Shown here in pieces: positions 2,824 to 21,597 of a DNA stretch of 21,597 nucleotides (positions within the stretch are counted from its first letter, which is position 1; every line of letters begins with the position of its first letter). Source of the stretch: a virus. The notes beneath the pieces are model-generated. The model saw only the letters and a list, made by a program, of their open reading frames with translations, was not told the DNA's origin and did not search any database. Both the position numbers and the translations under genes were made by a program. The stretch is taken from IMG/VR virus record IMGVR_UViG_3300025418_000027, positions 1-21,597 of that record. One strand, written 5' to 3'.

Positions 2824-3038
2824 AGTACAGAATAAGATTTAATAAGTCTAGGGGTCAGCCAGGACGCGGTACGTTGGACCATGTTTGGCGGCTTTTTGAG
2901 GGCGATAAAGAGTATTTGGTTAAGCACGTCAAAATAAATGTCCCATCTTATAGTGAGCGTGAAGGTGAAGATTGGAATATGTGTTGTGACGGTGCGTTAA
3001 AGTTAGACAGAGAAACATCCACTGCGATCATTGAATAA
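2820..3038 (+). CDS. conserved small phage protein (GTG start)
   Basis: A 72-residue, charged, soluble protein starting at GTG, which overlaps the upstream TGA (GTGTGA). The beginning MKYRIRFNKSRGQPGRGT, the segment DHVWRLFEGDKEYLVK and the end LDRETSTAIIE resemble a small unannotated protein I recall from aquatic podoviruses, usually just before the large tail protein as here. It has no membrane segment or signal peptide. The stop overlaps the next ATG (TAATG). The function is unknown; position suggests a tail-assembly or structural accessory role. Confidence 0.75.
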   Translation: MKYRIRFNKSRGQPGRGTLDHVWRLFEGDKEYLVKHVKINVPSYSEREGEDWNMCCDGALKLDRETSTAIIE

Positions 3039-5110
3039 TGTCATTTTTAAAGCTTGTTTTCAAACCTGGGGTTAACAGGGAAAAGACTCAATATGCTACA
3101 GAGGGTGGGTGGTATTCGAGCCAGCTTGTGCGTTTTCGAGAGGGTTTTCCTGAAAAGATAGGCGGCTGGACACAATATTCAATCAATACATTTCAAGGTG
3201 TTTGCCGTTCTCTTTGGAATTGGTTTACGTTTAACAACATTAGCTATATTGGCGTTGGTACAAATCTAAAGTTTTATATTACCTTTGGCAATCTTTATTA
3301 CGATATTACTCCCATTCGTGCAGTTAACACGCTAACAAATCCTTTTGCAACGACAAGCGGCAAAACTTCGGTGGTGGTTACAGATGCTAACGGAGGATTT
3401 TCAATTAATGATTTTGTTACTTTCTCTGGCGCATCGGCTGTAGGCGGTCTTACGCTAAACGGAACGTATCAAGTTGCAATCGTATTGTCAGGTACTACTT
3501 ATACGATTAATGCGGCTACGGCGGCCAGTAGTAGTGCAACAGGAGGCGGTACAGTTACGGCCTCTTATCAACTCAATACAGGGCCAGAATACGAAGTTGC
3601 ATTTAATGGATGGGGCGCTGGTGCATGGGGTGGAGGAACATGGGGTAATGGTAGTACGACTCTCCAGTCTCTTCAGATATGGAATCAATACAACTATGGC
3701 CAGGATTTGATCTATGGTCCTAGAGGCCAAGGTCTTTATTATTGGACAGCTTCTAATGGAACTGGAACGCCAGGTGTTAATTTAAACTCTCTTGGCGGAA
3801 CGGTTACGATCTCAATAGGTACACCAGCTCTTATTGTTTCTAGCTTAAATTTGCCAACAGGAAGCTCAGTCACATTTGCAACAACTGGCGCTTTACCTAC
3901 TGGTCTTAGTACGGGCACGCAGTATTATGTAATTAACGCGTCAGGCACACAGTTTAATGTGTCTTTGACTCAAAACGGCGCACCTGTTGCTACGTCAGGC
4001 ACACAATCAGGAACGCAGTCTATTGCGATACTAGGAGACGTGCCTACCTTACAAAATAACATTGTTGTTTCTGATTCTTCTAGGTTTGTAATTGTATTTG
4101 GTTGCAACAATATTGGTTCAACGACTATGAATCCTATGTTGATTCGTTGGTCAGACCAGGCTAATCCTTATGTTTGGTATCCATCTATTACCAACCAAGC
4201 TGGTGGTCAAACACTATCTCATGGATCTCAGATTGTGACGGTTATTCAGACTCGTCAAGAGATTTTGGCTATTACAGATGCGGCCGTTTATTCTGTACAG
4301 TATGTTGGTCCTCCTTTTGTGTGGAGCACTCAGCTTATGGGTGAAAATGTATCCATCATGGGACCAAATGCGGCAACGCTTGCGGCTGGTGTTGTGTACT
4401 GGATGGGGCGAGATAAGTTCTATATGTATACAGGTCAGGTTATGACTTTGCCATCGGACCTGCGTAGGTTTGTATTTCAAAACATAAATCAAAACCAAGC
4501 TCAACAAGTTTATGCCAGTACGTCTGAGGCTTTTAATGAAATTTGGTGGTTTTATGTTTCAGGATCAGGAACTAGGATTAATGCCTATGTAGTTTATAAC
4601 TATATTGACAAGATTTGGTATTATGGATCATTGGCTAGGACAGCATGGTTAGATACGGGATTGCAATCCAGCCCAGTTGCGGCCACATATAACGGCTACC
4701 TTGTTAACCAGGAAAGCGGTGTTGATGACAATGAGACGGGTACTCCAGCGGCCATAGATTCTTACATTATTTCATCCGAGATTGATATTGCACAAGCGCA
4801 GGGTGAGCGCTTTGCTTTTGTAGATAAAATGCTTCCAGATGTAACGTTCACTGGTTCTACGGCTGGTACAACGCCGCAAGCTACGATGACGATATATCCA
4901 TTAACAAACATGGGTTCAGGTGTAGGCACGCCAAACTCGCCGCAAGTTAACTATATAGCGTCTGTAAACCTTACCGAAGAATTTACAGGATATGTGTATG
5001 TTCGCATTAGAGGCCGTCAATTGATTGTCAAGATGGAATCCAACAAGATTGGAACCCAATGGCAATTAGGTACACCTTTGATGAGCATTAGACCAGATGG
5101 CAGAAGATGA
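3038..5110 (+). CDS. large tail/nozzle-like structural protein
   Basis: A 690-residue beta-rich protein. The N-terminus (residues about 8-43: VNREKTQYATEGGWYSSQLV, then RFREGFPEKIGGW) matches the opening of phage packaged-DNA stabilisation / tail-nozzle proteins (P22 gp10-like or T7 gp12-like), where a short phrase with YxSxGxW and LVRxxxG...IGGW recurs. Two Ser/Thr/Gly-rich modules appear inserted: about residues 98-182 (VTFSGA, GTYQV, YTINAATAA) and about 250-332 (LPTGLSTGTQYYV). Both resemble repeat-like beta modules that are common in these tail proteins. The rest (residues 335-690) contains aromatic-rich propeller-like strands (NPYVWYPS, EIWWFYVSG). It probably forms part of the tail tube or nozzle below the portal. 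The exact class (gp10 or gp12) is uncertain. Confidence 0.78.
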   Translation: MSFLKLVFKPGVNREKTQYATEGGWYSSQLVRFREGFPEKIGGWTQYSINTFQGVCRSLWNWFTFNNISYIGVGTNLKFYITFGNLYYDITPIRAVNTLTNPFATTSGKTSVVVTDANGGFSINDFVTFSGASAVGGLTLNGTYQVAIVLSGTTYTINAATAASSSATGGGTVTASYQLNTGPEYEVAFNGWGAGAWGGGTWGNGSTTLQSLQIWNQYNYGQDLIYGPRGQGLYYWTASNGTGTPGVNLNSLGGTVTISIGTPALIVSSLNLPTGSSVTFATTGALPTGLSTGTQYYVINASGTQFNVSLTQNGAPVATSGTQSGTQSIAILGDVPTLQNNIVVSDSSRFVIVFGCNNIGSTTMNPMLIRWSDQANPYVWYPSITNQAGGQTLSHGSQIVTVIQTRQEILAITDAAVYSVQYVGPPFVWSTQLMGENVSIMGPNAATLAAGVVYWMGRDKFYMYTGQVMTLPSDLRRFVFQNINQNQAQQVYASTSEAFNEIWWFYVSGSGTRINAYVVYNYIDKIWYYGSLARTAWLDTGLQSSPVAATYNGYLVNQESGVDDNETGTPAAIDSYIISSEIDIAQAQGERFAFVDKMLPDVTFTGSTAGTTPQATMTIYPLTNMGSGVGTPNSPQVNYIASVNLTEEFTGYVYVRIRGRQLIVKMESNKIGTQWQLGTPLMSIRPDGRR

Positions 5111-6457: not shown

Positions 6458-7861
6458 ATGGGTTTTTTCAGCGATTTAGTATCCAATCCTAGTAAAGCAT
6501 TTGGCTCTGACCTAACAGGCGGTAGTTCTGCTATTGGTCAAGCTGGTCAAGCTATAGGAATATGTGGTCGAGCCGCAATCTCAAATCCTTTAGTAGATGC
6601 TTTAGCTGGAGCCGCATTAGCTTATTTTGACCCCTTATCAATGGTGTCTGGATTAGGCGGGCTGACTGGTCTTGGCATGGGTGCTAATGCTGGTTTAATA
6701 ACGGGAGGTCTTGCTGGATTATCTACGGGTAACTTAAAGACTGGATTACAAGCTGGATTAGCGGGCTGGACTGGAGGTTCTTTAGCATCTGGAATAGCTG
6801 GATCTGCCGCATCAAAAGCAGACGCAATTAATCAACTTGGCACACAGCAATTACAACCTACGGCCGCACAAACTGCTTCTAATAATGCTATTGGTGTAGC
6901 TCAACCTTATGATACGGTTAACTATACAGCTAACCCAGTTACGGCTAATCCTGCTACGGCTGGAACTGGCGCAAGCAATCCTTTATCTGCCGCAACAACT
7001 ACTGCCGCACCTAGCGCCGCACCCGTTGTAACTCCATCTGCAACAGCCAGTAATCCAAGTATGTTGCAACAGGCAAAGAATTACATTATTAGTTCTTATG
7101 AAAAATGCGCTCCACTGACAATAGCGGCTGGATTGGGTGCAACAGGTTTGGCGGTTCAAGGACTTAAGAAAGCTTCTTCAGCTAATACTGTTTCAGCGCC
7201 TGTAAGTCCATCATCAAATGTGATTCGTGAATATTCTTACAATCCTTCTACGGGACAATATGCGGCTGGGCCTGTTATAAATGCGTCTAATTTTGGAACG
7301 CAACCCATAGTTCCAGTTAATTATTGCAATAAATGTAGTACATATACATTCCAATCTGCACCACAACAATCCAGTCAAAACTACAATACCATGACTGGCG
7401 ATAGTAAAAATGCTTATAACTTTCTTTCTGGCCAAACTAATCAACCCAAAATAACTGGAAACACATATCAAGGACAAGTTGCTGTTCCTTATTTGTGTTA
7501 TGCGCAGAACCCAACTAAGTATGCACTTGGTGGTATTACCGCTTTAAATCATGGTGGTCAAGCAGTGGGTCATTTAGGAGGTTATTCAGATGGAGGTCGT
7601 TTATTACGCGGGCCAGGTGATGGTGTCTCTGATTCGATTCCTGCAACTATTGGTGCTCATAACCCTGAGCCTGCCCGTCTTGCTGACGGTGAGTTTGTGG
7701 TTCCTGCTCGTATTGTTTCTGAGCTTGGCAATGGATCGACTGAAGCTGGAGCTCGCAAACTTTACCAAATGATGGATCGCGTACAGAAGAATAGAGCACG
7801 CTCTGTTGGCCATAACAAAGTGGCTGTAAATTCGCACTCTGATAAATTTTTACCCGCATAA
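6458..7861 (+). CDS. internal virion/ejection-type protein with conserved C-terminal DGEFVVPARIVSELG motif
   Basis: A 467-residue Ala/Gly/Ser-rich protein. Residues about 40-125 are glycine-zipper-like and hydrophobic (GAALAYF, GGLTGLGMGANAGLITGGLAG, GWTGGSLASGIAG), as expected of a membrane-active internal virion protein. A long disordered Thr/Ala/Pro linker follows (about 130-200), then another hydrophobic patch (TIAAGLGATGLAVQGL), then a distinctive C-terminus: GRLLRGPGDGVSDSIPATIG, then ARLADGEFVVPARIVSELGN, then GSTEAGARKLYQMMD. I recall this C-terminal phrase from many phage virion proteins that precede large ejection proteins. It has a CxxC pair (NYCNKC) and several other cysteines. 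It heads a set of three such genes and probably acts in DNA ejection across the host envelope. Confidence 0.8.
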   Translation: MGFFSDLVSNPSKAFGSDLTGGSSAIGQAGQAIGICGRAAISNPLVDALAGAALAYFDPLSMVSGLGGLTGLGMGANAGLITGGLAGLSTGNLKTGLQAGLAGWTGGSLASGIAGSAASKADAINQLGTQQLQPTAAQTASNNAIGVAQPYDTVNYTANPVTANPATAGTGASNPLSAATTTAAPSAAPVVTPSATASNPSMLQQAKNYIISSYEKCAPLTIAAGLGATGLAVQGLKKASSANTVSAPVSPSSNVIREYSYNPSTGQYAAGPVINASNFGTQPIVPVNYCNKCSTYTFQSAPQQSSQNYNTMTGDSKNAYNFLSGQTNQPKITGNTYQGQVAVPYLCYAQNPTKYALGGITALNHGGQAVGHLGGYSDGGRLLRGPGDGVSDSIPATIGAHNPEPARLADGEFVVPARIVSELGNGSTEAGARKLYQMMDRVQKNRARSVGHNKVAVNSHSDKFLPA

Positions 7862-7870
7862 GGATTAAAT

Positions 7871-8971
7871 ATGGCTTGCCCTACCTCAGTCAGTTACACA
7901 ACGACAACGATACCGTGTTACGCGGCTCCTTATGCTACGAGCATGTTGGGCAAGACCCAGGCATTAACTTGTACAACTCAAAATCCTTACATGAAGTATT
8001 TGGGCTGTACAGTAGCCCAATTTACTCCTCTTGAGCAACAAGCATTTACAGCACAAGCCGCGCAACAAGTTGCACCCCAGCTTAAATGTGCAACAACTAT
8101 GGCGGGTAATGCTGGACTTGCAGGATTAAATACACGTTACGCCTACAACCCTTATCAAGCTCAACAGGTAGGCACAGGGAACTTTACTGATCCTAATACG
8201 GCTATGGCCTATATGAATCCGTATTTGCAGGCATCTTTGGCTCCTCAAATACAGTTGATGCAACAGCAACAGGCTCAACAACAACAAATGAACCAGGCAT
8301 CGGCCGTTGGACAAGGCGCATTTGGCGGTACACGTTGCGCTGTTTTGACTGGAGCTCAGAATCAAGCTAACCAACTGGCTCAACAAAACTTAATTGGTAA
8401 TGCGTTTAACCAAGCTTATAAATGTGCAGAAGCTCAATACTCTACTTGTGCGGCTAGAAACTTACAAGCGCAAACAACAAACCAGGCGGCTAATCAGACT
8501 GCGGCTAACCTTAACGCACAACAACAACAGTTTGGAGCTAATTTAGGTTTGCAAGGACTTAACTTAGCCAACACAGCGGCTGGTACGCTTAATACGCTTG
8601 GTAACTCACAGTTTACACAAGGTGAAAATTTAATTAACAATCAAGAGCAATTGGGTGCTGTACAACAACAGCAAGTTCAAAATGTTCTTAACCAACAATA
8701 TCAATGTTACTTAAACGCTAAGAATTATCCTTATGAACAATTAAGTTATGAGTCTAATATTTTGCATGGTTTGCCAATGACAAATACAACTGCTCAAACT
8801 TATCAAGCTCCTCCATCTATGTTATCGCAAGTGGCAGGCTTAGGTCTTGGTGTGGCTGGTCTTTCTAGCCTTGGAGGATCTACAACAACTTCTAACAAGA
8901 AAAAAGGTGGTGCAATTAAGCATCGAAAATCCAATGGCATTGTTGATTTAGCAATAGCGAAAATGGGGTAA
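7871..8971 (+). CDS. Gln-rich internal virion-type protein
   Basis: A 366-residue protein dominated by Gln, Ala and Asn, with long amphipathic helices. The phrase YMNPYLQASLAPQIQLMQ, followed by a Gln-rich run and GQGAFGGTRCAVL (about residues 113-160), matches the GAFGGSR-type core of phage internal virion proteins. The phrase YPYEQLSYESNILHGLP (about 278-294) matches the conserved YPxxxLxFxxxxLxGxP end block of the same group. The C-terminus holds a glycine-rich hydrophobic patch and the basic tail NKKKGGAIKHRK. Nine cysteines are spread along it, unusual for this protein type. The start has AAGGA about seven bases upstream. The next ATG is two bases after its stop. It probably forms part of an ejection complex; the role is inferred from family and context. 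Confidence 0.78.
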   Translation: MACPTSVSYTTTTIPCYAAPYATSMLGKTQALTCTTQNPYMKYLGCTVAQFTPLEQQAFTAQAAQQVAPQLKCATTMAGNAGLAGLNTRYAYNPYQAQQVGTGNFTDPNTAMAYMNPYLQASLAPQIQLMQQQQAQQQQMNQASAVGQGAFGGTRCAVLTGAQNQANQLAQQNLIGNAFNQAYKCAEAQYSTCAARNLQAQTTNQAANQTAANLNAQQQQFGANLGLQGLNLANTAAGTLNTLGNSQFTQGENLINNQEQLGAVQQQQVQNVLNQQYQCYLNAKNYPYEQLSYESNILHGLPMTNTTAQTYQAPPSMLSQVAGLGLGVAGLSSLGGSTTTSNKKKGGAIKHRKSNGIVDLAIAKMG

Positions 8972-8973
8972 AT

Positions 8974-10569
8974 ATGTTTAATCCAAGTACTACACCTTTC
9001 CAGCCTGGTCAAATCGACCAGACTATGGCTATGTTGGCTAGTTTAAAAGACCAAGGTAAGCTACAACAGTATGTAATGCAACACCAGTGCAATCCTAATT
9101 TGGTTGCACTTGCATCTCAAGTTAATTCTATGAGCCAACAATCAGCTCAGCCAGGGCCGCAAACGACAGTTAAAGACCAGGCTATTCAAGCTATGGGTCA
9201 GCCAAGTCAGCCAGGAGCACCCACAGGTCAACCCGAACAAACGCCTGATCCAGAAATGGAAATTAGACAAGCTATTGACGAAAGTATTGCCAACAAAGAC
9301 TTTGAGACTGCAAAAAAACTTATTACGAAATTAAAAGATATTGACAAAATAGAACCGCCAGAACCTATGGTTCCTGGTGGGGGTGCTTTGCCTGGAGATA
9401 ATCCTAATATGCCTCATGGTGGATCACCTATGGCATTACCAGAAGAACAAGGAATTGGTACTTTGCCAGCTCAAAATCTTCAAGGTATGGGTCATGCAGA
9501 TGGCGGGATTATTGGTTATGCAGGCGGCGGTACTGGTAGCACTTATAAACCATTAACAGATGAAGATATTTCTGCTGTATTAAATCCAAAAGATACACAA
9601 GGAAATAGTTCTCTTATAACTCCTGAACAATTGCAGACAAAACAAGAGGCAATGGTTAAGCCAAAGAATCAACAAGTAGAGTCTGATTATGCGCCATTTG
9701 CACAAAGAATTGCTCAAAAACAAGCTAAGCTCGATGCTAGTTCTGGAAACAATTTAGGTACTGCGCTATTAACTGCTGGTCTTGGAATGATGGCGGGCAC
9801 TTCCCCTTATGCAATGGCTAACATTGGTCAAGGCGGGTTAAAAGGTCTTGAGACTTATACAGCGGCACAAAAAGCCGATCAACAAGCACAAGATGCTTTG
9901 GACAATTCCAATCTATCACTTATGCAAGCCAAACGCGCTGAGAAATCTGGCAACTATCGTGATGCCGCTTTACTTATGGATACGGCTCAGAAACAAAACG
10001 ATGCCAAAGTTGCTCACGGCCTTGCCTCGTTACAACTTAAAAACACATCTCAATATCAGAATGAAGAAGCTATTGCTAAGAGAATCCAACTTGGTAATGA
10101 AGCTGAGAAAATTAAATCTGATGCAGATTGGCATAAAATTTATGGTGATTATTTAACTAATAAAAGCGGCCCGCAAAGTGCAGAGCAAAAAGAAGTTGAT
10201 GCTTTATTTGCAAAACAAACTGCAAAAGCAATTGCAGATAGAGACGCATTAATTAAACAAGGATTCCCGTCTAATGTTTCAAAGATTAATGCTTTAAGCG
10301 CTGAAATAAATCAAGTTGCCGATAATCTTTACGGTTCTAGGCCACATTTACAACATCCAGGCTATCAAACAACATACGATCCAAAAGCGGCTCAACCACA
10401 AGCTGGTCCTCACTTCTGGAGTGAAGATATTCCTGGTACATTACAGGCTATGCCAATACAAAAAACACCACCAGTAGTTCCAAAACAAGGAATTCCTAAT
10501 ACAAACGGTTTGCCAACTGCTCAACAAGCAGGAGCTCCAGCGATAGATTTTTCTGCTCTTCCTAGATAA
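8974..10569 (+). CDS. internal virion-type protein, helical, with ADGGIIGYAGGG motif
   Basis: A 531-residue protein. The N-terminal 100 residues are Gln/Pro-rich. A short charged helix (about 95-125: IRQAIDESIANKDFETAKKL) is followed by proline/glycine-rich linker and the phrase GHADGGIIGYAGGGTG (about 173-188), which recurs as a short conserved DGGIxxxAGGG motif in virion proteins of related phages. A hydrophobic block (TALLTAGLGMMAGTSPYAMA, about 265-284) is followed by long coiled helices with EKSGNYRDAALLMD and a disordered C-terminus. It has GGGG just before the ATG and stands immediately before the giant gene. It probably forms part of the same ejected core. No catalytic motif is visible. 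Confidence 0.75.
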   Translation: MFNPSTTPFQPGQIDQTMAMLASLKDQGKLQQYVMQHQCNPNLVALASQVNSMSQQSAQPGPQTTVKDQAIQAMGQPSQPGAPTGQPEQTPDPEMEIRQAIDESIANKDFETAKKLITKLKDIDKIEPPEPMVPGGGALPGDNPNMPHGGSPMALPEEQGIGTLPAQNLQGMGHADGGIIGYAGGGTGSTYKPLTDEDISAVLNPKDTQGNSSLITPEQLQTKQEAMVKPKNQQVESDYAPFAQRIAQKQAKLDASSGNNLGTALLTAGLGMMAGTSPYAMANIGQGGLKGLETYTAAQKADQQAQDALDNSNLSLMQAKRAEKSGNYRDAALLMDTAQKQNDAKVAHGLASLQLKNTSQYQNEEAIAKRIQLGNEAEKIKSDADWHKIYGDYLTNKSGPQSAEQKEVDALFAKQTAKAIADRDALIKQGFPSNVSKINALSAEINQVADNLYGSRPHLQHPGYQTTYDPKAAQPQAGPHFWSEDIPGTLQAMPIQKTPPVVPKQGIPNTNGLPTAQQAGAPAIDFSALPR

Positions 10570-10577
10570 GGATAATC

Positions 10578-13500
10578 ATGGATGTAAGAATGCCAGATGG
10601 GACGCTTGTCAGAGGCGTTCCTGATGATATTACCCAAACTGAATTATTGAGAAGATACTCATTATTCAAAGCACCTTCTGAAGCTACGCCTGAAGAAAGT
10701 AGAAAATATGTTAATAACCAATTAGGATTAGCAGGTTTAGCCAATGCAGGCAGAGGTCCTATCAATCCCAATGAAGAAGACATACAGGGAATCATTGCTC
10801 AAAATCAACAACCAGCAGTGCAACAAGTTGCACCGCCTGCACCTCCTGTAGCGCAAGCTCCAATAGTCCCAACCCCAGTGCAACAAGTTGCACCCCCAGA
10901 GCCACAACAGGAACAGCCTTGGTATTCTGGTATTGCCAAGTTTGGTCAAGATCAACAAAAGAAACGTGATCAACTTGCCAAATCCGCAGTTCCATTGGCA
11001 CAAGACGTTGGAGCCGCTATTGCCGCTACTCCTTTGGCATTTGAGGCTGGAGCTCAAGCGTTATCTCAGGGAGCAGATCCTAGTGCTTTGACAGGAGATG
11101 CTTGGAAACACGACTTTATTGCTGAACAACGTGCACTGGCCAAAAAGAATGCCGAAAATCCAGAGCTTAAAAACGAATATCTATTAGGTGTTGACAGAGC
11201 CAAGATTAGAAATTTGCCACAGAATGCGGCATTTTCTGTATTGTCTATGGGTTCAGGATTGGCAGGTGCGGCAGTTGGATTTGTTACTCCACTTCCATTG
11301 GCAACCGAAGCAGGCACGATGGCGGCATCTGGTGCGGCGGCTTACCGCATGGATACCAACGGATTCTTACGAGACATAAGAGAAAAGCTAGACGATGCTT
11401 CTATAAAGGCAACAGGCAAACCATTGACCGATGAGCAATGGCTTAAAACAGCTCAGGAATACCAAGGACTTGTCAGAGAGCACGGCGCATGGGAGGCATT
11501 GCCAGAGGCGCTAGGAAACGTGTTTGGTAACAAATTGGCTGGGGTTATATTCAAGGAAGCAGGCCAAGGACTTATGGGCGTGCTCAAGTCTTTTGGTGCT
11601 GGTGCGTTAGAGCTTGTAAATGAGCTTGGCACAGAAACCATCACACAAATTGGTCAGCACAATACTGAACTGGCCGCTGGAGTCAATGACGATCCTAACG
11701 CTAAACCAAGATCATTTACCAATCCTGATGATATTTGGAAGTCTGCTAAAGAAGTAGCGCCAGATGTTCTTTTATTGACTGGTGCAATGAGCGGTGGAGC
11801 TCACGTTGCTGGTTCTATTTATAACTCAACAGATTACGCTAAGACTAAAGAACTTGCAAAAGAATTAAACGCAAAAGATTTCTTAGATACAAAAACGCCT
11901 GAAGGTTTATTGGCATTACAAAAAGCCGCAGATCAACAGTTTGCACTTGGTCCTGGTACAAGTAACAATGTAATTCCACAAGTTACAACTAGAACGCCTG
12001 GTATTAATCCTAATCAACCGCCAGAGCCTCCAGAAGAAGAGCAAGCACCTGAAGTACCTACTGCTACTTCTACTCCTCCTGCCGCGCCTACCACCCGCGC
12101 TAAAACTCTTCCTGTTGATGAAGATACGCAGGCTATGTTGGATGAGCTACAAGGAAAGCCAGCAAAACCTAAAACTCCTACTGCTGATATTAACGAAAAG
12201 AATCTTAAAGGCCGTTTTGATGGAATTTTTAGCGGCAAAGACTTTTCTTCTGGTGAAGAAGGTGAGGCTTGGTATCATCCAAAAACAAATAAATTAACTA
12301 CTGAAGGGGTTGATGGAACACCAGTTCAACACTATGCAGGAGATAAAACTGCTACTGGACTGACAAATGTAACTCCAATTAACACGCCAGAAGAGGCAAA
12401 AGCGGCAATTGATGCTGGCAAATCTTTTGCTACTGTACAAGAAGGAACTGATCCTTTTAAACCTGTAGAGACAAAACCTGTAAAGACAAAGCCTTCAGGT
12501 AAAAAACCAGTTCAGAATAAAGACAATCCAATACAAACCTTTGATGCGGGAAACAATACGGAAGTTAGAGTATTTCCTAATGACAAAGGATATATAGCAA
12601 ACTTTTACGATAAAGATTCTGGTAATTACATAGGCGGGAAAATATTTCCAACTAATAATTTTGGCGATCAAGCATTGCCAAAAGCATTGGAATTTGCGCA
12701 AGTCGAATCTGACAAGTCCAAGAAAATGGCTGGTGAAGCGCCCCCAGAAAATGTTACTACCCGTATTCGAGATCAAATAAAAAATTCTGAAATTGGTCAA
12801 AATCAACAAGTTACTCCTGAAGTGCAACAAGTTGCACCTACTGAAGTTCAAGCTAACCCAGCTTCTACAGTTCAACCATCTGCTGACGTTCCCTTAGACG
12901 AGAAAGCCAAGGCTAAACAAGACTTGGAAGATGCGTTAGGAGATTTGTCTTTACTCATGGGTAAAGGCGGTCGATTAAACATTGTTCCTGAAGACGAACA
13001 AAAGTTAATGCCTATTCTTACAAAGCTGATGGATGCGGCTTTTAGAATGGGTTATATCAAGTTTAAAGAAGCGGCCAAGTTTGTAATGGATATGATCCGC
13101 TCCAAGATTGGTAAAGATGTTGCAGACCAAGTGTCATTGGATCACTTGCAGGGCGCTTACATCGGCATGGCTGGAAAGTATCAGGACAAAGGTGCAGATA
13201 ATAAGAAAGATGTTATCTCTGTTGAGTCTTTGCACGAAATCCACAATGAAGCGCCAACAACTACAGACGTAGATATTAATACTCCGCAAGGACAATTTCA
13301 CGTTGCCACACAGATTGGCGCATTCTTTCTTGAAGGCGGTAAGTTTGAGAACATTAATCAAGCCAGAGCAAAAATCGAGGAAATCACAGGACAGAAGATA
13401 CCGCCAGGAACTAATGAGGCTAAATCAGCAGATGAAGCCATCGAGGTCGGCGTTGTTCTTGCGGCTAGACATATCGTAGGACAAGGCGGTAAACCAGATC

Positions 13501-16500
13501 AAATATACGATCAACTGGTAAACCTATATGGTAGACAGCCTAATTTGTCTGTCAGAAGTTCTGAAAGTGTATTGCATCAGGCTTATTCAACACCAGCGCC
13601 CCTAGCTTACATTGCATCGAGGTTAGCAGGCATTAATCCAAACACAAAAGTTTACGAGCCCAGTGCTGGTAACGGTATGCTTTTGATTGGAGCTAATCAA
13701 GAAAACATTTATGCAAACGAGTTGCAACCTGGTCGTGCGGCTATTCTTGAGATGGTATTACCCAATGCCAATGTTACTGATTTCAATGCCGCTAAAACAA
13801 TCCCAGGTGGAGCTGTTGATACAGGAACGATGGATGTTGTTATTGCCAATCCACCGTTTGGCGTAGTCAAAGACAAAGAAGGCAAGCCAATTACGCACAA
13901 TGCTCATTGGTATGACACTAGAGAAATAGACCATGCCATAGCATTTAGGTCTTTGCGTACCATGAAAGACAATGGTAAAGCCGTGCTTATTGTTGGCGGC
14001 GTTATGGGCAAGACCGATGAAGCTCGCGTAGAGGATTATCGAGGTAAAGCTAAGCGAGATTTTTATGCAGAGCTTTATAGAAGATACAACGTAGTAGATC
14101 ACTTTACAGTTAGTGGAAATCTATATACGAAACAAGGTGCATCGTATCCAGTAGACGTTATTGTCATTGATGGCGTTAGGAATGGAGCGCCTTTGGTTAA
14201 TGAAAAAGGTGAAATACAAACTGCAAGAGCATTGCCTGCCTTTGACTTGCCAAAGGTATACACAACATACGGTCAGTTAAAGGAGAAATTAGATGAAAAC
14301 ACCTTGGTATCCAGAGGGAATGAGCGCCCCAGTGGAGTTGACAGCGGTATACGCGCTGAAGGAAACGTTAACGAACAAGGAGTGGCTGGAGGCGTTAGCG
14401 GACAGGGTGTCCAACCTAGCACAACAGGAGGAGAAACCCCTGGAGGCGGCGAACAGGGCGTGTCAGAAAATGGACCTTCCACAGGTGGACAACCCGAATC
14501 AACTGGGGCAGTCGCTGGTAACGCACAACCTAAACCTGGTAACGCACCTGAACCTGGCGCAGGAGGAGAAGCAGTTCCCAGCAAAGGTGAAGTCAAACCT
14601 ACAGGCGGCAAAGGCACTGAGGGAAACAAGCCTGGAGGATTGGGTGGAGTCAGCGTTGTCTCTGGTGAACGCATCGGATCTGGCCTAAAAGACCGAGCTG
14701 GACAAGAAACAGAAACAGAAAACCAAGTTGGTTACGCACCGCACTCTAATGCCTCATCTGTAGGCACATTGGTTCCTAAAGCGATGGCACAGGCTATTGA
14801 GAACTCATTAGCTAGTTTAGAACAGCAATACGGAAACATTGATGATTTTGTATCTGAAAACCTTGAAATGGATCCAGAGACGCTTAGAGAGTTATTCTCT
14901 GCTGAACAAATAGATGCAATTGCTTTGGCTATCAAGAATGCCGAAGAGGGTAAAGGGTTCATTATTGGAGATCAAACGGGTGTTGGTAAAGGCCGTGTTG
15001 TTGCGGCAATGATTAAGTACGCTTTGATCAAAGACAAAATACCAATCTTTGTAACTGAGAAACCTAATCTTTATTCAGACATGATTAGAGATTTGGACGA
15101 TATTGGTATGACAGATAAATTGGGATTAGACACAGCTAAGCCCAAAATTCTTATTACAAATGCCAGTGAAAAGATTCCTTATACATTACTCAGAAATGTA
15201 AAAGGTGAAATTACTGAAAACAATTTAACTTTAAAAGCGCCCAAGTCTGGTCCTGCATTAGATGGTCTTTTGAAGGATATGCAAAGGGATGAAAGTCTTG
15301 GCGATTACAAAGTAATTTTTACAACATATAGTCAATTACAAACCGTCAAGGGCAAAGAAACTGAGCGTCAGCGTTTTATAAAAAACTTTGGTGCTGGTAA
15401 TTACATGATCTTTGATGAGAGTCACAACGCTGGTGGGGCTGGTGAAACTCAAGCAAGATCAAAAGAACAAAGAGAAAGAGCTAAAGAAGGCAAGAGCTTG
15501 GTGGAGGGAAGAGCCGCTTTTGTCCGCAACTTGGTGCAAGGTGCTTACGGTACATTCTTCTCATCTGCAACATATGCAAAGCGTCCAGATGTTATGGATT
15601 TGTATTCCAGCACTGATATGAGTCTTGCTGTAGATAAGTTGGCAGACCTGGCAGACGCAATTAAAAACGGTGGTATTCCTATGCAACAGACCGTTGCTAA
15701 GATGCTGACCGAAGTTGGTCAATACATTAGACGTGAGCGTACATTTGCAGGCGTTTCTTACGATACAAAAGAAACCAAAGTAGATAAACAAACGGCTGAA
15801 AACATGGCATCGTCCATGAGCCAGGTGCTTGCATTCTCAAGAGCCAAAGAAAGTGCGGTTAAAGATTTACAGAAATCCCTTGATAAACAAGGCGGTAGAG
15901 CAAGCATCGAGGGCGAGAAAACCCAAGTACAGAGCGCAAACTTTGGCGCAATCATGCACAACTTGATTGACCAAATGCTTTTATCGCTAAAGGCAAAGGA
16001 TTCAGTCAACCATGCAATTGAGCGCTTAAAGGCTGGCGAGAAAGTGGTGATGACCGTATCTAATACGATGGGTTCATTCCTGCAAACTTATGCAGACGAT
16101 ATGGGTCTAAACGTAGGGGATGACGTTGACCTATCATTTAAGGACTTGTACTTGCGCTACCTTGAAAAACAGCGCATGGTTACGATCAAAACTCCAGACG
16201 GCAAGAAAAAGCAATATCGTTTAACCGATAACGATCTTGGCGCTGGACTTACAAAGCAATTTGAAGACATTAAAAAGTTTATTGAAGGAGCTGGATTTGG
16301 TTCTGCACCAATATCTCCTATTGATTATTTACATAATGAACTTAAAAAAGCAGGATTTAAAACTGAAGAAATTACAGGCCGTACTGTTACTTTAGACTAT
16401 GCCAATGGCAAGCCTAAGTTAGCAAGCAGAACTGCAAATATCAAGCAACGTGTTAATGCAGTTAAAGCATTTAACAATGGAACGGCTGACGTTATTATTC

Positions 16501-19500
16501 TTAACCAAGCTGGTTCAACAGGATTGTCTTTACACGCTTCTAGCAAGTTTAAAGACCAGCGCAAGCGCCATATGATCATTGTTCAGGCTGAAAAAAATAT
16601 TGATACGCATATGCAAATGTTGGGGCGCGTACACCGTACAGGTCAAATCATGCCTCCAGCATACTCCCAGATGATGGCTGATATTCCTGCTGAGATGCGT
16701 CCAGCGGCTGTGTTACTTAAGAAAATGGCATCACTCAATGCCAATACAACTGCATCTCGCAAGTCTGCCGTATCTGCGGAAGGTGCTGTAGACTTTATCA
16801 ATGATTACGGAGGTCAAGTTGCACAAGAGTATTTAAGGGATAACCCTGATATACACGAAGCAATTGGCGGTAAGAAGATCGTTGATTTGACAGAAGACCC
16901 AACAGAAGGGACAGAAGATGATATTCGTAGGCTCACAGGATATATACCAATATTGCCAATCAAGCAACAAGAAGAAGTCTACAAAGACATTATCGAGCGA
17001 TACAACGACTTGTTGCAACGAGAAGAAAGTATGGGTACTAATAAGCTCGAAGCCAAAGCACATGACCTGGATGCCAAGACACTTTCATCTAAGCCTATTA
17101 CCGAAGACAAAGGATCAAGTTCTGCCTTTGCTCAACCAGCAAACATGGAAAAGGTTGATGTTAAACGCACAATAAAACCTTACTCTAAAGCAGAGGTGCA
17201 AGAACAGATTGATGAGAACTTGGGTGGCAAGGAGCCAGAAGAGAAAGCCAAGGAAATGTTTGCCAGTTTAACTCCTAGAGCTAGTGAGTTTGGTAGGCAA
17301 AGATTGGCAGAGCTTGCAGAAAGCGGCGCTGATCCTACGAAGATTGAAGAAGTCAAAGGACAGATGAATCTTCAATACGGGAACATTAGAAGTATTTTGA
17401 CTACTTATCCTATTGGCACGCCATTAATTCTTAAAAGTAAGAACGGTACGCTTATTTCTGGCGTTGTAACTAACGTAGAAAACAAGGGTAAGACTAAGAA
17501 TCCATTGGCTGGTTCTGATTGGAAGATGCAAGTTGCGCTTGCTAACGGCGATGCAAAGAGCATTTCAATCAACTTCTCCCAGGTCAACAGCGTGTATGAG
17601 CTCAGGCAAGAGTCTGAAGTGCCGTGGCATAACCCTGAGACAGACAAGTACGAACATATCCCTATGATGGATTTGTTTGACAAGAGCGCAACTGTTAGGC
17701 GTGAGAAACGTTGGATGGTAACTGGCAACTTGTTGGCGGGCTTTGCGGCTGTCAACAACATGGGTCAGATCATGTCCTACACCAAGGACGATGGCACAAC
17801 AGGCCAGGGTATATTAATGCCCCGCACGTTTGACTTTGAGAAAGAAGAGAAGAGAGCCCCAGTTAAGCTTAACACTTTGCAGAAGGTGCAAGTATTTTTT
17901 GATGAATTTCAAAACGGAATTGTTCAAACCGAAGATGGCTCATTAAAAATATCTAAGCGTGGTGAAAGATACCAATTTATTACTTCAAAATCAAAGAGAG
18001 AAGGTGGCCAATATTATTTAGATTTAGGACTGACAAATTTTACTGGCACTTTCCATTCGTCTGGTCAACAAATGAATGCAGTCATCTATGACCAAGAAAA
18101 AGGAAGAGATGCAATTAAATATATTTTGCACGATATGCAACTGGGATTGGTTGCGGGCAATTACAAAGATGAAGCTAGAGCACTCTTTGCACCCAAGGAA
18201 GAGTTCAAGCCGCCTTTGAGTAACTTGAGTCCTATCAACAACTTTATAGGTGACAGAGAGCAAAACATCAAAGAGTTGCAGGCCGCTAAACTTAAGAAAG
18301 CCGCACTCTTTAAAAAGTTTGCTGAAGGAAAGGCTGGGTTAGTAGAGCAAGAATCAGCTAATTTGATTAATGCCTGGGTGCGTGCATTACAAGAAACAAT
18401 CTCGGCTACCAAGCCAGAGAAGAAAAGCGCTAAAGATTTCTTTGTAAAAGCAACCAAAGACTGGGGCGAAGGAAAGATCAGCGATTCTGTTTACTCAACC
18501 ATAAAAACTTTGTATGAAAAGTATCCTTTTGTTCTTGAAGGACTGTCATTGTCTATCAATAAGGGCAAGGAAGACAAATCAGCGGCGGGTGAGTTTGAGC
18601 CTATTCAACGAGTCATAAACTTATTTAAGGGCACTCATGGCGTTACCGATTCAGTAACTATCCGTCACGAACTTACGCACTCATTAGAACAAATGATGGA
18701 TAAGGATGCGTCTAAGTCTTTGGTTAAAGAATGGGGTATACAAGTCAAAGCCAAGATGAAATCTGACAAGACCAAAGAAGGAAAAGCATTCTTTAAGGCT
18801 TTAACAGATTTCTATGCTGATCCATCTTTAGAACAATACAACGCATTAATTGCGGCTTTGCCTGACCAATCCTATTACCAGTATGTTAACCCGTCCGAAT
18901 ATTGGGCTGTTAATGCTGAGCAACTATTGGCTAAAAAGCTAGGTAGTGGCTGGGATAGATTCAAGTTAGCAATTAGAAAGTTATATGAAGGGCTTAAATC
19001 TCTCGTTGGCGCAACCAATCAATATGCTTTGCATAAAGTGTTTGATGACATTATGAGTGCAAAAGGCACTCGTATGACGAATAGTGCTTTACGGGATTAT
19101 GTTGACGCTAGTACGATGGCGCTTCAGAACAAAAACTTCAGGAACTTTAAAGGAGCTCCAGCGCCCAAAGCAACATGGGATGTATCTGAGCCGTTTAAAG
19201 AAGGTGATTGGGAGCACAGACTTGTAGATAAACATCTTGATACCAAACAAATAGTTAAAGATATTAATAACCAAGTTGGACAAATACAAGATGCTTGGGA
19301 CCCATATCTTAAGTTAACTACGATGCCAGGTCGTAAGGCTGATCAGGTTAACAAGTTCTTAAAAGAAGAGGGCAAACCTTTAATTAAGAAAATGCACGAC
19401 TTGGGCGTGACTGTTGAAGAGTTTGAAGAGTACTTGCACAACCGTCATGCAGAAGAGTACAACAATCTGATTGCATCTCGCAATGCCGCTTTGCCTGATG

Positions 19501-21597
19501 GTGGTTCTGGTATTGACACCAAAGATGCGCATGATTACTTAAATAATTTGCCTGCTGATAAGAAGAAAAAGTATCAGGACTTGGCTAAAGATATAGACAA
19601 CATCGTTAAAGAAACGCAAGACCTATTGGTAGCAAGCGGTACTGAAAAGGCTGAGACTATCCAGGGCTGGCGCGATAAGATGCCCTACTATGTCCCACTC
19701 AACAGGGATGAGGAGGAGCTAGACTTTGCTGGAAATTCTGTAAAAGGATTTGGCAAGGGCATTAGTACTGGCGGGGCATTTACCAGGGCGGGTACAGGAT
19801 CAACCAAGACTGTTGTTGATATTTTGAATAATATCTTCCTCCAGCGTGAGCGTGCAATCAACAGGGCTGAGAATGCTCGCGTTGGTAAGGCGCTTATTGG
19901 TTTGGCACTACAAGCACCCAATACGGATTTCTGGTTGCCTATTAATCCAAGAGCCATCCGCAATAAGAAAAAGCTGTATCAGAACCTGATTGATATGGGT
20001 TTAACGCAACAAGATGCAGATAACTTTATCAAAGAGCCTACTGTAGCCAGCATAGACAAGCTGACAGGCCAGGTTCAATATAGAGTCAATCCAGTACTCA
20101 GAGGGTCTAAGAACGTTATTACAGTACGCGTAAACGGCGAAGACTGGTATGTGTTCTTTAACCCTGGTAATGAGCGTGCTATGCGTATGGCAGAAGCGCT
20201 TAAGAACATGGATAGCAGTTCGGTGGCTGAAGTGCTTAGCAGGGTTGCAGAGGTAACTCGCACAATGGCGGCAATGAATACGCAGTACAACCCGCTGTTT
20301 GGTCCTTGGAACTTATTGCGTGATTACACAGAAGCCAGTATTACGCTTGGTTCAACTCCAATTGCAGGCAAAAACGAAGAGCTTAGAAAAGGCGTTTTAC
20401 CTGCAATGCGTGCCATTTACAGAATAGGCAGAGAAAAAGGAGCCACAACTCCTGAAATGCAAGCATGGATGGATTTATTTGATAAATACAAAGAGGCTGG
20501 TGGTCTGACAGGATTCCGTCAACAGTTCAGCGGATCAAATAAGAGAGAAGCTATTGTTGATCGAGAGCTTGCAGTATTAGATAAAAGCAATGTACGCAAA
20601 GTAACTAGCAGTGTTATGGACTGGCTATCAGACTATAACGAAGCGCTTGAGAATGCTGTACGTTTGTCGGCATTCAAAGTTGCTTTAGATCAAGGCATTA
20701 GCGAGGAAAGAGCCGCCGAGATTGGCAAAGAAATAACTGTTAACTTTGATCGTAAGGGTCAATGGTCTGCAAACTTTGCGGCGTTGTTTGCGTTCTTTAA
20801 CGGTAGCATACAAGGCACTGCAAAGATGGCCAGGGTCATGATCGAAAAAGAAAATGGCAAAACAAAACTCACCAAGTTGGGAGCAAAGATTGTTGCTGGC
20901 GGTGTGTTCTTGGGTGTTATGCAAGCTATTGTTTTGAAGATGGCTGGGTTTGATGAAGATGAGCCGCCAGAGTATTTGAAGAACAAGAGCCTTATTATTC
21001 CAATTGGTGGTGGTAAATATTTAAATCCCCCACTGCCACTAGGTTACAGTGTGTTCCCAAGTGTTGGGCGCATCATTGCTGAATATATGTTGTCGGGCGG
21101 TAAAGACCCTGCTAAGCATATTATTAGTATTATGAGTACTATTACAGATGCGTTTAATCCATTGGGTGGTGGTGGCTTTATCCAAAACTTTAGTCCAACC
21201 GTGGTAGACCCATTGTTTGGCTTATACGAAAACAAAGATGCGTTTGGAAGGCCAATATCTAAGCCTATGAATGAAATGAAGCCTACACCTGGGTATGAGC
21301 GTAATCGTGAATCGGCCAGCGCATTCAGTAAAGGTCTTTCATATGCGTTGAACTATATCAGCGGTGGCGGTAAATACGGCATCGGTATGGTTAGCCCAAC
21401 AGCGGATCAGCTTGATTATTTAATGGGTCAATACGCAGGCGGTGTTGGACGTGAGGTGATGAAGACCGTGGACTTGGCATCTATACCATTTAAAGATGAG
21501 CCAGTCCCGTCTTACAGGATTCCTATTGTTGGAAAACTTTACGGTGAATCAAAATCAGATGCGGCAGTACAAGATAAGTTCTATAAGAATATTATCC
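10578..21597 (+). CDS. giant polyvalent ejected protein: methylase, SBNO/DarB-like helicase, zincin-like and LPD38-like regions (3' end beyond window)
   Basis: One open frame runs from ATG 10578 to the last base (at least 3,673 residues) without a stop. Domains in order: virion-type start (MPDGTLVRGVPDDITQTELL, 5-24); hydrophobic helices (about 145-245); disordered Pro-rich parts (about 80-115, 470-520); DarB-type region before the methylase (about 775-860); adenine-methylase fold (YEPSAGNG at 1026-1033, NPPF at 1091-1094); Gly/Pro linker (about 1245-1375); strawberry-notch-type SF2 helicase (QTGVGKG with Lys1471, DESH at 1613-1616, QMLGRVHRTGQ at 2013-2023); a DarB-like C-terminal helicase extension (about 2260-2415); HELTH at 2697-2701; then helical parts and NPLFGPWNLLRD (3238-3249), which resembles LPD38. 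Phage P1 DarB pairs methylase and helicase, is carried in the virion and protects DNA from restriction. A similar early protective role is inferred. AAGG sits just upstream of the ATG. Confidence 0.9.
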   Translation, partial: MDVRMPDGTLVRGVPDDITQTELLRRYSLFKAPSEATPEESRKYVNNQLGLAGLANAGRGPINPNEEDIQGIIAQNQQPAVQQVAPPAPPVAQAPIVPTPVQQVAPPEPQQEQPWYSGIAKFGQDQQKKRDQLAKSAVPLAQDVGAAIAATPLAFEAGAQALSQGADPSALTGDAWKHDFIAEQRALAKKNAENPELKNEYLLGVDRAKIRNLPQNAAFSVLSMGSGLAGAAVGFVTPLPLATEAGTMAASGAAAYRMDTNGFLRDIREKLDDASIKATGKPLTDEQWLKTAQEYQGLVREHGAWEALPEALGNVFGNKLAGVIFKEAGQGLMGVLKSFGAGALELVNELGTETITQIGQHNTELAAGVNDDPNAKPRSFTNPDDIWKSAKEVAPDVLLLTGAMSGGAHVAGSIYNSTDYAKTKELAKELNAKDFLDTKTPEGLLALQKAADQQFALGPGTSNNVIPQVTTRTPGINPNQPPEPPEEEQAPEVPTATSTPPAAPTTRAKTLPVDEDTQAMLDELQGKPAKPKTPTADINEKNLKGRFDGIFSGKDFSSGEEGEAWYHPKTNKLTTEGVDGTPVQHYAGDKTATGLTNVTPINTPEEAKAAIDAGKSFATVQEGTDPFKPVETKPVKTKPSGKKPVQNKDNPIQTFDAGNNTEVRVFPNDKGYIANFYDKDSGNYIGGKIFPTNNFGDQALPKALEFAQVESDKSKKMAGEAPPENVTTRIRDQIKNSEIGQNQQVTPEVQQVAPTEVQANPASTVQPSADVPLDEKAKAKQDLEDALGDLSLLMGKGGRLNIVPEDEQKLMPILTKLMDAAFRMGYIKFKEAAKFVMDMIRSKIGKDVADQVSLDHLQGAYIGMAGKYQDKGADNKKDVISVESLHEIHNEAPTTTDVDINTPQGQFHVATQIGAFFLEGGKFENINQARAKIEEITGQKIPPGTNEAKSADEAIEVGVVLAARHIVGQGGKPDQIYDQLVNLYGRQPNLSVRSSESVLHQAYSTPAPLAYIASRLAGINPNTKVYEPSAGNGMLLIGANQENIYANELQPGRAAILEMVLPNANVTDFNAAKTIPGGAVDTGTMDVVIANPPFGVVKDKEGKPITHNAHWYDTREIDHAIAFRSLRTMKDNGKAVLIVGGVMGKTDEARVEDYRGKAKRDFYAELYRRYNVVDHFTVSGNLYTKQGASYPVDVIVIDGVRNGAPLVNEKGEIQTARALPAFDLPKVYTTYGQLKEKLDENTLVSRGNERPSGVDSGIRAEGNVNEQGVAGGVSGQGVQPSTTGGETPGGGEQGVSENGPSTGGQPESTGAVAGNAQPKPGNAPEPGAGGEAVPSKGEVKPTGGKGTEGNKPGGLGGVSVVSGERIGSGLKDRAGQETETENQVGYAPHSNASSVGTLVPKAMAQAIENSLASLEQQYGNIDDFVSENLEMDPETLRELFSAEQIDAIALAIKNAEEGKGFIIGDQTGVGKGRVVAAMIKYALIKDKIPIFVTEKPNLYSDMIRDLDDIGMTDKLGLDTAKPKILITNASEKIPYTLLRNVKGEITENNLTLKAPKSGPALDGLLKDMQRDESLGDYKVIFTTYSQLQTVKGKETERQRFIKNFGAGNYMIFDESHNAGGAGETQARSKEQRERAKEGKSLVEGRAAFVRNLVQGAYGTFFSSATYAKRPDVMDLYSSTDMSLAVDKLADLADAIKNGGIPMQQTVAKMLTEVGQYIRRERTFAGVSYDTKETKVDKQTAENMASSMSQVLAFSRAKESAVKDLQKSLDKQGGRASIEGEKTQVQSANFGAIMHNLIDQMLLSLKAKDSVNHAIERLKAGEKVVMTVSNTMGSFLQTYADDMGLNVGDDVDLSFKDLYLRYLEKQRMVTIKTPDGKKKQYRLTDNDLGAGLTKQFEDIKKFIEGAGFGSAPISPIDYLHNELKKAGFKTEEITGRTVTLDYANGKPKLASRTANIKQRVNAVKAFNNGTADVIILNQAGSTGLSLHASSKFKDQRKRHMIIVQAEKNIDTHMQMLGRVHRTGQIMPPAYSQMMADIPAEMRPAAVLLKKMASLNANTTASRKSAVSAEGAVDFINDYGGQVAQEYLRDNPDIHEAIGGKKIVDLTEDPTEGTEDDIRRLTGYIPILPIKQQEEVYKDIIERYNDLLQREESMGTNKLEAKAHDLDAKTLSSKPITEDKGSSSAFAQPANMEKVDVKRTIKPYSKAEVQEQIDENLGGKEPEEKAKEMFASLTPRASEFGRQRLAELAESGADPTKIEEVKGQMNLQYGNIRSILTTYPIGTPLILKSKNGTLISGVVTNVENKGKTKNPLAGSDWKMQVALANGDAKSISINFSQVNSVYELRQESEVPWHNPETDKYEHIPMMDLFDKSATVRREKRWMVTGNLLAGFAAVNNMGQIMSYTKDDGTTGQGILMPRTFDFEKEEKRAPVKLNTLQKVQVFFDEFQNGIVQTEDGSLKISKRGERYQFITSKSKREGGQYYLDLGLTNFTGTFHSSGQQMNAVIYDQEKGRDAIKYILHDMQLGLVAGNYKDEARALFAPKEEFKPPLSNLSPINNFIGDREQNIKELQAAKLKKAALFKKFAEGKAGLVEQESANLINAWVRALQETISATKPEKKSAKDFFVKATKDWGEGKISDSVYSTIKTLYEKYPFVLEGLSLSINKGKEDKSAAGEFEPIQRVINLFKGTHGVTDSVTIRHELTHSLEQMMDKDASKSLVKEWGIQVKAKMKSDKTKEGKAFFKALTDFYADPSLEQYNALIAALPDQSYYQYVNPSEYWAVNAEQLLAKKLGSGWDRFKLAIRKLYEGLKSLVGATNQYALHKVFDDIMSAKGTRMTNSALRDYVDASTMALQNKNFRNFKGAPAPKATWDVSEPFKEGDWEHRLVDKHLDTKQIVKDINNQVGQIQDAWDPYLKLTTMPGRKADQVNKFLKEEGKPLIKKMHDLGVTVEEFEEYLHNRHAEEYNNLIASRNAALPDGGSGIDTKDAHDYLNNLPADKKKKYQDLAKDIDNIVKETQDLLVASGTEKAETIQGWRDKMPYYVPLNRDEEELDFAGNSVKGFGKGISTGGAFTRAGTGSTKTVVDILNNIFLQRERAINRAENARVGKALIGLALQAPNTDFWLPINPRAIRNKKKLYQNLIDMGLTQQDADNFIKEPTVASIDKLTGQVQYRVNPVLRGSKNVITVRVNGEDWYVFFNPGNERAMRMAEALKNMDSSSVAEVLSRVAEVTRTMAAMNTQYNPLFGPWNLLRDYTEASITLGSTPIAGKNEELRKGVLPAMRAIYRIGREKGATTPEMQAWMDLFDKYKEAGGLTGFRQQFSGSNKREAIVDRELAVLDKSNVRKVTSSVMDWLSDYNEALENAVRLSAFKVALDQGISEERAAEIGKEITVNFDRKGQWSANFAALFAFFNGSIQGTAKMARVMIEKENGKTKLTKLGAKIVAGGVFLGVMQAIVLKMAGFDEDEPPEYLKNKSLIIPIGGGKYLNPPLPLGYSVFPSVGRIIAEYMLSGGKDPAKHIISIMSTITDAFNPLGGGGFIQNFSPTVVDPLFGLYENKDAFGRPISKPMNEMKPTPGYERNRESASAFSKGLSYALNYISGGGKYGIGMVSPTADQLDYLMGQYAGGVGREVMKTVDLASIPFKDEPVPSYRIPIVGKLYGESKSDAAVQDKFYKNII
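10818..10833 (+). repeat. palindrome GTGCAAC-AA-GTTGCAC, copy 1
   Basis: An exact 16-base inverted repeat with 7-base arms, in the proline-rich N-terminal region of the giant gene. It encodes VQQVAP. Identical copies lie at 10878 and 12822. Confidence 0.6.
10878..10893 (+). repeat. palindrome GTGCAAC-AA-GTTGCAC, copy 2
   Basis: This copy is identical to the one 60 bases upstream and in the same reading frame, so it also encodes VQQVAP. A local duplication of the peptide unit is the simplest explanation of this pair. Confidence 0.6.
12822..12837 (+). repeat. palindrome GTGCAAC-AA-GTTGCAC, copy 3
   Basis: The third exact copy, about 1.9 kb downstream of the first two, again read as VQQVAP in a disordered Pro/Gln-rich stretch. 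Shorter 14-base forms (GCAACAAGTTGCAC) occur at 1936-1949 in the endolysin gene and at 8062-8075 in the Gln-rich virion gene. Confidence 0.6.
13545..14262 (+). other. N6-adenine-type DNA methyltransferase domain in the giant protein
   Basis: Residues about 990-1228. HQAYSTPAPLAYIA matches the motif X-type lead-in of gamma-class enzymes, VYEPSAGNGMLL is motif I (S-adenosylmethionine binding) and DVVIANPPFG is motif IV (catalytic NPPF). These motifs are intact, so activity is plausible. The target site cannot be told. In DarB-like proteins this domain precedes the helicase, as here. Confidence 0.85.
14281..14706 (+). repeat. GC-richer, low-complexity Gly/Pro/Glu linker coding region
   Basis: The main frame encodes about 130 residues dominated by Gly, Pro, Glu, Ser and Thr (phrases such as TTGGETPGGGEQG and NAPEPGAGGEAVP) between the methylase and the helicase. 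The DNA here is visibly richer in G and C than its surroundings. It probably acts as a flexible tether. The complementary strand and the +1 frame are also open over most of it. Confidence 0.75.
14293..14688 (+). CDS. candidate overprinted ORF inside the giant gene (131 codons)
   Basis: This frame is +1 to the giant gene. AGGAG at 14281-14285 lies seven bases before the ATG, a textbook ribosome site, and the frame stays open for 131 codons. The predicted product is not low-complexity: it is Leu/Ala/Glu/Gln-rich with helical character (NKEWLEALADRVSNLAQQEE, then an inexact repeat NLVTHLNLAQEE, then AKALRETSLEDWVE). The host frame encodes a flexible linker, so it would tolerate overprinting. However, a GC-rich low-complexity stretch can keep alternative frames open by chance. 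No homologous family is recognised. It is an unproven candidate. Confidence 0.3.
   Translation: MKTPWYPEGMSAPVELTAVYALKETLTNKEWLEALADRVSNLAQQEEKPLEAANRACQKMDLPQVDNPNQLGQSLVTHNLNLVTHLNLAQEEKQFPAKVKSNLQAAKALRETSLEDWVESALSLVNASDLA
14727..17830 (+). other. strawberry-notch/DarB-like SF2 helicase region of the giant protein
   Basis: Residues about 1384-2418. The opening block (GTLVPKAMAQAIENSLASLE, EQIDAIALAI) and IIGDQTGVGKGRVVAAMI are characteristic of the SBNO/DarB helicases. Walker A Lys1471, the DESH box (1613-1616), NQAGSTGLSL (about 1976-1985) and the arginine-finger motif GRVHRTGQ (2016-2023) are all present. The C-terminal extension with RRxxxWMVTGNLL and MSYTKDDGTTGQGILMP follows the DarB pattern. 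It probably translocates on or remodels DNA using ATP. Confidence 0.85.
18570..18930 (+). other. zincin-like metallopeptidase segment of the giant protein
   Basis: HELTH at residues 2697-2701 is a clean HExxH zinc motif. It is preceded by a strand with AGEFEPIQRVINLF and TDSVTIR, as in the zincin-like domains of phage polyvalent proteins, where the phrase TxxHExxH follows a beta strand. About 73 residues later NPSEYWAVNAEQ (Glu2774 and Glu2781) resembles the EFFAE-type third-ligand helix of that group. It could cut the parent protein or host proteins after entry. The activity is inferred from motifs only. Confidence 0.6.
20220..21250 (+). other. LPD38-like C-terminal region of the giant protein
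   Basis: Residues about 3215-3558. The phrase NTQYNPLFGPWNLLRDYTEA, the following ELAVLDKSNVRKVTSSVMDW, the segment ENAVRLSAFKVAL and a hydrophobic helix (KIVAGGVFLGVMQAIVLKMA) match my recollection of the LPD38-type region that closes many phage giant virion proteins (NPxFxxxNxxRD followed by E...RLAAFxxA). Its job is not known; membrane contact during ejection is possible. The assignment is from memory of the family. Confidence 0.6.

Follow-up and report, generated by a model that had tools for sequence, protein, structure and literature searches.

The window, as we call the whole analysed stretch (a virus record of 21,597 bases, from a virus of bacteria seen in metagenomes only), is the source of a giant gene whose product is a phage-type polyvalent protein. 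As we read it, with somewhat better than even probability, the protein would be packed into the capsid, ejected with the genome and cut, after which its enzymes would protect the incoming DNA. What is new is that a core of DNA methylase (MTase) and SBNO-type helicase, related to plasmid proteins, is joined to an LPD38 tail in many uncultured phages. Of the new points, we regard two as most useful, namely the link between this tail and an upstream gene cassette and the exchange between tail and cargo. The polyvalent idea is already published, and no description of the SBNO-type group, its spread among environmental phages or the tail-cassette link was found in the literature searched. The features of the window are as follows.

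3038..5110, + strand: virion structural protein, 690 aa (PHROG 3287, 1.1e-54)
6458..7861, + strand: 467-aa ORF, cassette member with no named family
7871..8971, + strand: 366-aa ORF, PHROG 4287 'DNA ejection protein' (6.4e-10)
8974..10569, + strand: 531-aa ORF, last cassette gene, directly before LPD38-tail giants
10578..21596, + strand: giant polyvalent gene, 3,673 codons in the window, 3,754 aa when closed by an overlapping contig
10578..10742, + strand: N-terminal tag (MDVRMPDGTLVRGVP...), also on giants with other cargo, candidate packaging signal
10965..12017, + strand: N2 block, residues 130-480, near the N-terminus also in LPD38 giants that carry neither MTase nor SBNO (L152-L154, L160)
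12915..13547, + strand: block at residues 780-990, immediately N-terminal of the MTase, conserved among relatives
13545..14297, + strand: N6-adenine DNA methylase block (Pfam N6_Mtase at residues 1003-1143; NPPF at 13848-13859)
14886..15797, + strand: N-terminal half of the SBNO helicase, AAA_34 (GVGKG at 14979-14993, DESH at 15414-15425)
16365..16838, + strand: C-terminal half of the SBNO helicase, Helicase_C_4 (GRVHRTGQ at 16623-16646)
17208..18497, + strand: 'mid' block behind the helicase, also present in plasmid homologues
18492..19181, + strand: probable metallopeptidase block (HELTH at 18666-18680, then a conserved NPSEYW)
19215..21596, + strand: constant C-terminal tail (C1, C2, LPD38; Pfam LPD38 at 20958-21530), its last ~81 residues beyond the window

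The first-pass annotation had described one unbroken frame of more than 3,670 residues and had proposed that the contig be extended to the stop codon and the blocks be searched with profiles. The ORF reading indeed gives a single uninterrupted frame (10578..21596+), which spans 3,673 codons and has not closed where the window ends. A complete gene with stop, coding for 3,775 aa, was found on the overlapping IMG/VR contig IMGVR_UViG_3300025782_000027 (L003/L005, 40,752 bases). Relative to the window gene, it shows a single substitution (I/V) and, following residue ~2466, an exact in-frame tandem duplication of 63 nt; once closed by this contig, the window version would have 3,754 aa. The duplication repeats 21 aa (FITSKSKREGGQYYLDLGLTN; window ~17976-18042), is present in L003/L005 and absent from the window, and may be a natural variant or an assembly effect. 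A relative on a third contig (L004) is intact as well (3,794 aa) and shows 81-97% identity to the window giant in most blocks. For this pair, dN/dS is 0.079/0.505, about 0.16 overall, and stays below 1 in every block, being weakest in a short linker (residues 1240-1400, 0.079/0.153). Because the gene is intact in a second contig and in a relative, and is under purifying selection, we judge it to be real. An assembly join or a pseudogene, in whose favour the exact tandem duplication between the two contigs can be cited, is rejected for the same reasons, and the architecture recurs in many loci; we consider such an origin extremely improbable.

The family assignments to MTase, SBNO helicase and LPD38 were borne out by Pfam, with matches to LPD38 (9.8e-41, residues 3461-3651), Helicase_C_4 (1.3e-24, 1930-2087), AAA_34 (9.8e-23, 1437-1740) and N6_Mtase (2.5e-5, 1003-1143). 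The motifs, too, lie where they had been placed (NPPF at residue 1091, GVGKG at 1468, DESH at 1613, GRVHRTGQ at 2016, HELTH at 2697). Among core relatives, NPPF is conserved in 73/74, G[IV]GKG in 77/80, DE[SA]H in 78/80 and motif VI in 78/80. The window giant has the hallmark of an SBNO helicase, AAA_34 plus Helicase_C_4 with SF2 motifs, and these motifs are kept in 77-78 of 80 relatives. Polyvalent proteins are a known kind (PMC5512222), and their characteristics are present here: N6_Mtase, AAA_34 and Helicase_C_4 in one frame together with an HExxH block, a phage-only LPD domain (LPD38 is listed as such in PMC5512222) and a location of the gene near late/virion genes. In PHROGs, the top-scoring matches are to giant families without an assigned function, over the C-terminal ~800 residues (phrog_14770, 7.5e-190), and an NCBIfam search returned no match. 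The N2 block has one weak hydrophobic stretch (residues 218-236), and the mid block contains a small beta-barrel weakly similar to Sm/Lsm folds (Foldseek). No nuclease family was found in the giant with Pfam, PHROGs or NCBIfam, and a reading as restriction-modification enzyme was therefore dropped.

Among studied proteins, the nearest relative is a giant of ~4,500 residues, the DarB-like protein of Bcep22-type podoviruses (BcepIL02 gp70, 4,667 aa; JC1 gp69, 4,515 aa), in which a methylase and an SF2 helicase are likewise combined in one chain. The tail of BcepIL02 gp70 is homologous to the C1-C2-LPD38 tail of the window giant (25.5% over 811 columns, 3e-47), and its gene lies directly behind those of two virion proteins, just as the window giant follows virion-type genes. 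The two differ in that gp70 carries an N-terminal SLT transglycosylase and LPD3, the former being absent from the window giant, and in that its helicase is SNF2/HepA-like whereas the window giant matches the SBNO Pfam models; profiles of the window MTase, SBNO and mid blocks gave no match to the Bcep22-type giant. Mass spectrometry of virions purified with CsCl detected JC1 gp69 by 51 unique peptides (PMC9144972). The placement in the virion guessed in the first-pass annotation thus has a direct precedent in a homologue that it had not named. Because the tail is homologous to that of a giant found in virions, packaging and ejection of the window giant are likely.

The genes upstream of the giant code for a spanin, an endolysin, a 2OG-Fe(II) oxygenase, the virion structural protein, two small ORFs and the 467/366/531-aa cassette; downstream, on the other strand, are an Erf-like annealing protein and an exonuclease. 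The oxygenase (window 2122-2823, Pfam 3.6e-7) is encoded between the endolysin and the virion genes. The three genes directly before the giant had been called internal-virion-type. The 366-aa ORF bears this out by its match to 'DNA ejection protein'; the 467- and 531-aa ORFs have no match in PHROGs but form a conserved cassette with it ahead of LPD38-tail giants. In searches with profiles of the cassette genes, homologues turn up immediately ahead of LPD38-tail giants of both cargo kinds; L007-like loci have the 366 and 531 genes as a fusion. Among the loci with the MTase-SBNO core, the cassette is upstream in 25/29 with an LPD38 tail versus 0/14 with another tail after clustering at 95%, 13/17 versus 0/11 at 80%, and 7/9 versus 0/7 at 70%, these counts coming from related phages whose kinship is only partly controlled by the clustering. 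Because cassette presence among core loci splits by tail type, it is the LPD38 tail, rather than the enzyme core, that goes with the ejection-type genes.

Isolate phage records with the ~880-residue tail (C1, C2, LPD38) number 131. Searches with an 11-row alignment of the tail add over 200 viral contigs and 30 bacterial/archaeal genome contigs, many of the latter from Betaproteobacteria. In closed genes, it occupies the extreme C-terminus. By blastp, the tail proteins that lack SBNO form some 60 groups of cargo, which measures between ~125 and more than 3,000 aa, with some genes ending at a contig edge. Recognised cargo comprises ART-PolyVal, ddrB-ParB, LPD37, GNAT, InPase, RadC, SLT, GHKL ATPase, PBECR1 and MuF-C; by family assignment, ART, ddrB-ParB, GNAT, PBECR1, RadC and SLT are classic polyvalent effectors. 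The giants L152 and L160 have the GHKL-type ATPase in their cargo, L160 with an additional weak match to topoisomerase I; if real, these would be an unusual injected cargo. A 3,002-aa protein of Methanosarcina virus MetMV and a 3,130-aa protein of Vibrio phage 1.205.O share the LPD38 tail with the window (37% and 26%, respectively) and are also encoded by single giant genes, but they carry other cargo, that of MetMV without a recognised enzyme. Two further LPD38-tail giants are on contigs binned as archaeal (L098, Nitrosotalea; L097, Methanoperedens), which together with MetMV suggests that archaeal viruses may also use this tail. An AlphaFold2 model of the tail is mostly helical and fairly confident (pLDDT 76, pTM 0.76). 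Foldseek and profile searches returned no convincing relative of solved structure, and among predicted viral structures there were many matches to other large phage proteins, several of which bear the name LPD38 or 'large polyvalent protein associated domain'.

These data bear on two other readings of the giant. It could be a late cytoplasmic enzyme that acts on progeny DNA, methylating it ahead of packaging, and that stays behind in the cell. Phage MTases commonly modify progeny DNA, and the gene is located in the late region. We nevertheless consider this quite improbable, given that the tail has a homologue among proteins detected in virions, that the cassette of ejection type is tracked by the tail and not by the enzyme core, and that unrelated cargo is found on this tail. 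Alternatively, the tail might do the work, as an ejection protein or an internal core protein, with the enzyme block as a minor passenger. The constancy of the tail over so wide a range of cargo sizes agrees with this, as does a set of split loci (L048-L050, L069) in which the tail half is retained as a gene of its own directly behind the core ORF. Set against it are the low dN/dS and the intact motifs of the enzyme blocks, and we regard it as unlikely, even if the tail may still have its own role. Since catalytic motifs are kept and dN/dS is low in these blocks, the enzymes are under selection, too.

In a scan of viral contigs (IMG/VR), 79 loci with the MTase-SBNO core were found, most with the LPD38 tail; complete core-bearing genes mostly code for about 3,100 to 5,600 aa. 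The combination is thus not unique to the window, and it also occurs in the isolated Bacteroides phage BS-TP4, the best of only three isolated-phage records that match the core. In BS-TP4 gp3 (5,391 aa, annotated as hypothetical), a single gene joins the MTase-SBNO-mid core (29% identical over 1,645 columns) to the C1-C2-LPD38 tail; compared with the window giant, it has a larger N-terminal part and a portal gene downstream, and no HExxH was found in it. Plasmid records matching the core number 802, with a best identity of 41%. Plasmid proteins annotated 'strawberry notch C-terminal domain-containing' share the MTase-SBNO-mid core with the window, as in Chroococcidiopsis pB (2,256 aa, 41% identity), but this protein has no match to the zincin, C1, C2 or LPD38 profiles. 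A Thalassospira plasmid protein, compared over a partial sequence, has MTase, SBNO and mid, with neither zincin nor LPD38 tail in that part. In the split loci mentioned above, a core ORF of 3,137-3,163 aa and an ORF of 1,805 aa (HEAQH plus tail) are a few bases apart; RadC was found in the core ORF of L048.

As judged by sequence comparison, tail and cargo swap. In the SBNO part, identity to the window is ~80% for L007 as well as for L010, yet in the tail it is 15% and 52%, respectively. The core tree, made with a quick method and having some long branches, has about five changes of tail type, and its starred branches force at least three. Two non-LPD38 tails match phrog_10089, 'DarB-like antirestriction'. 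L154 has the N-terminal tag of the window giant, N2, the HExxH block and the tail, but neither MTase nor SBNO.

The HELTH block is probably a metallopeptidase. Its HExxH is invariant in 56/56 relatives having that block, and an HExxH is found 150-230 aa before the tail in 50/102 giants (often at ~180 aa; 0.07 from composition alone), being frequent at this position and not universal. The AlphaFold2 model of the mid-zincin region is weak (pTM 0.34), and Foldseek with this weak model returned no zincin. In the split loci, loss of the peptidase is ruled out by the HEAQH motif on the tail half. For polyvalent-protein peptidases, cutting of the chain into units has been proposed (PMC5512222), and the position of HExxH ahead of the tail fits this idea.

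At the other end of the chain, several types of N-terminal tag are found, some on both SBNO and non-SBNO giants. Short tags (MQRAVNPQTGEVLFLVNNQW, MAFDPDAYL) recur across unrelated cargo (L020, L021, L028, L033 and L034 versus L145, L156, L159, L162, L163, L170 and L176). One universal packaging motif is ruled out, the PDG..VP pattern being present in 11/89 giants only. A function of the tags in packaging is a guess by analogy. In phage P1, DarB is a virion protein with a methylase-helicase concept and an antirestriction function (PMC5512222, PMC9024508), which consists in shielding DNA in cis against type I restriction. A reporter is directed to the capsid by no more than its first 30 residues (PMC9024508), and co-ejection of the Dar proteins with DNA has been reported (PMC12810830). 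The first-pass annotation had cited DarB, along with polyvalent proteins of phages and conjugative elements, as precedent for ejected DNA-protection proteins. The analogy holds for the mechanism only, both proteins following the methylase-helicase concept, but homology is not detectable: DarB (2,255 aa) has no LPD38 tail and gave no match at E below 1 with the window core and tail block profiles or blastp, and a reading of the giant as a DarB orthologue was dropped.

Taken in order, the mechanism that we favour would run as follows. The ~880-aa LPD38 tail would link the giant to the ejection-type proteins encoded just upstream, and the N-terminal tag may act as packaging signal, by analogy with P1 DarB. 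The giant would be packed in the capsid and then ejected together with the genome. The metallopeptidase between enzymes and tail would probably free the enzyme block by cleavage. The MTase and the SBNO translocase, accompanied by no recognised nuclease, would run along the incoming DNA and methylate it or shield it against restriction. Cleavage, methylation and protection, and with them the counter-defence role suggested in the first-pass annotation, are steps that we infer, and we know of no SBNO enzyme with a demonstrated antirestriction role. The same ejected translocase could instead chiefly pull the genome into the cell, with the methylase being secondary. The describers of the Bcep22 giants reportedly proposed a role in facilitating DNA entry. 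The motor motifs are strongly conserved, and SWI2/SNF2-like translocases move on duplex DNA (PMC5512222). However, the MTase motif is equally conserved and is paired with the motor in the core relatives, and many LPD38-tail giants have no recognised motor, so that we hold such an entry motor to be rather unlikely.

Beyond the single protein, we tentatively propose, at slightly less than even probability, a standard frame for virion delivery. It would consist of an exchangeable short N-terminal tag, enzyme cargo that is freely swapped, a peptidase for its release and a constant tail of ~880 aa working with the upstream ejection cassette, and the SBNO-methylase core shared with plasmids would have switched to another type of tail three times or more. 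One enzyme pair would then be common to plasmids and phages, both of which have to pass the same barrier on entry. Should the tail prove to be a delivery module whose cargo can be exchanged, the boundaries of tag, cargo, peptidase and tail become predictable, and hundreds of 'hypothetical' phage genes could be read as injected effectors.
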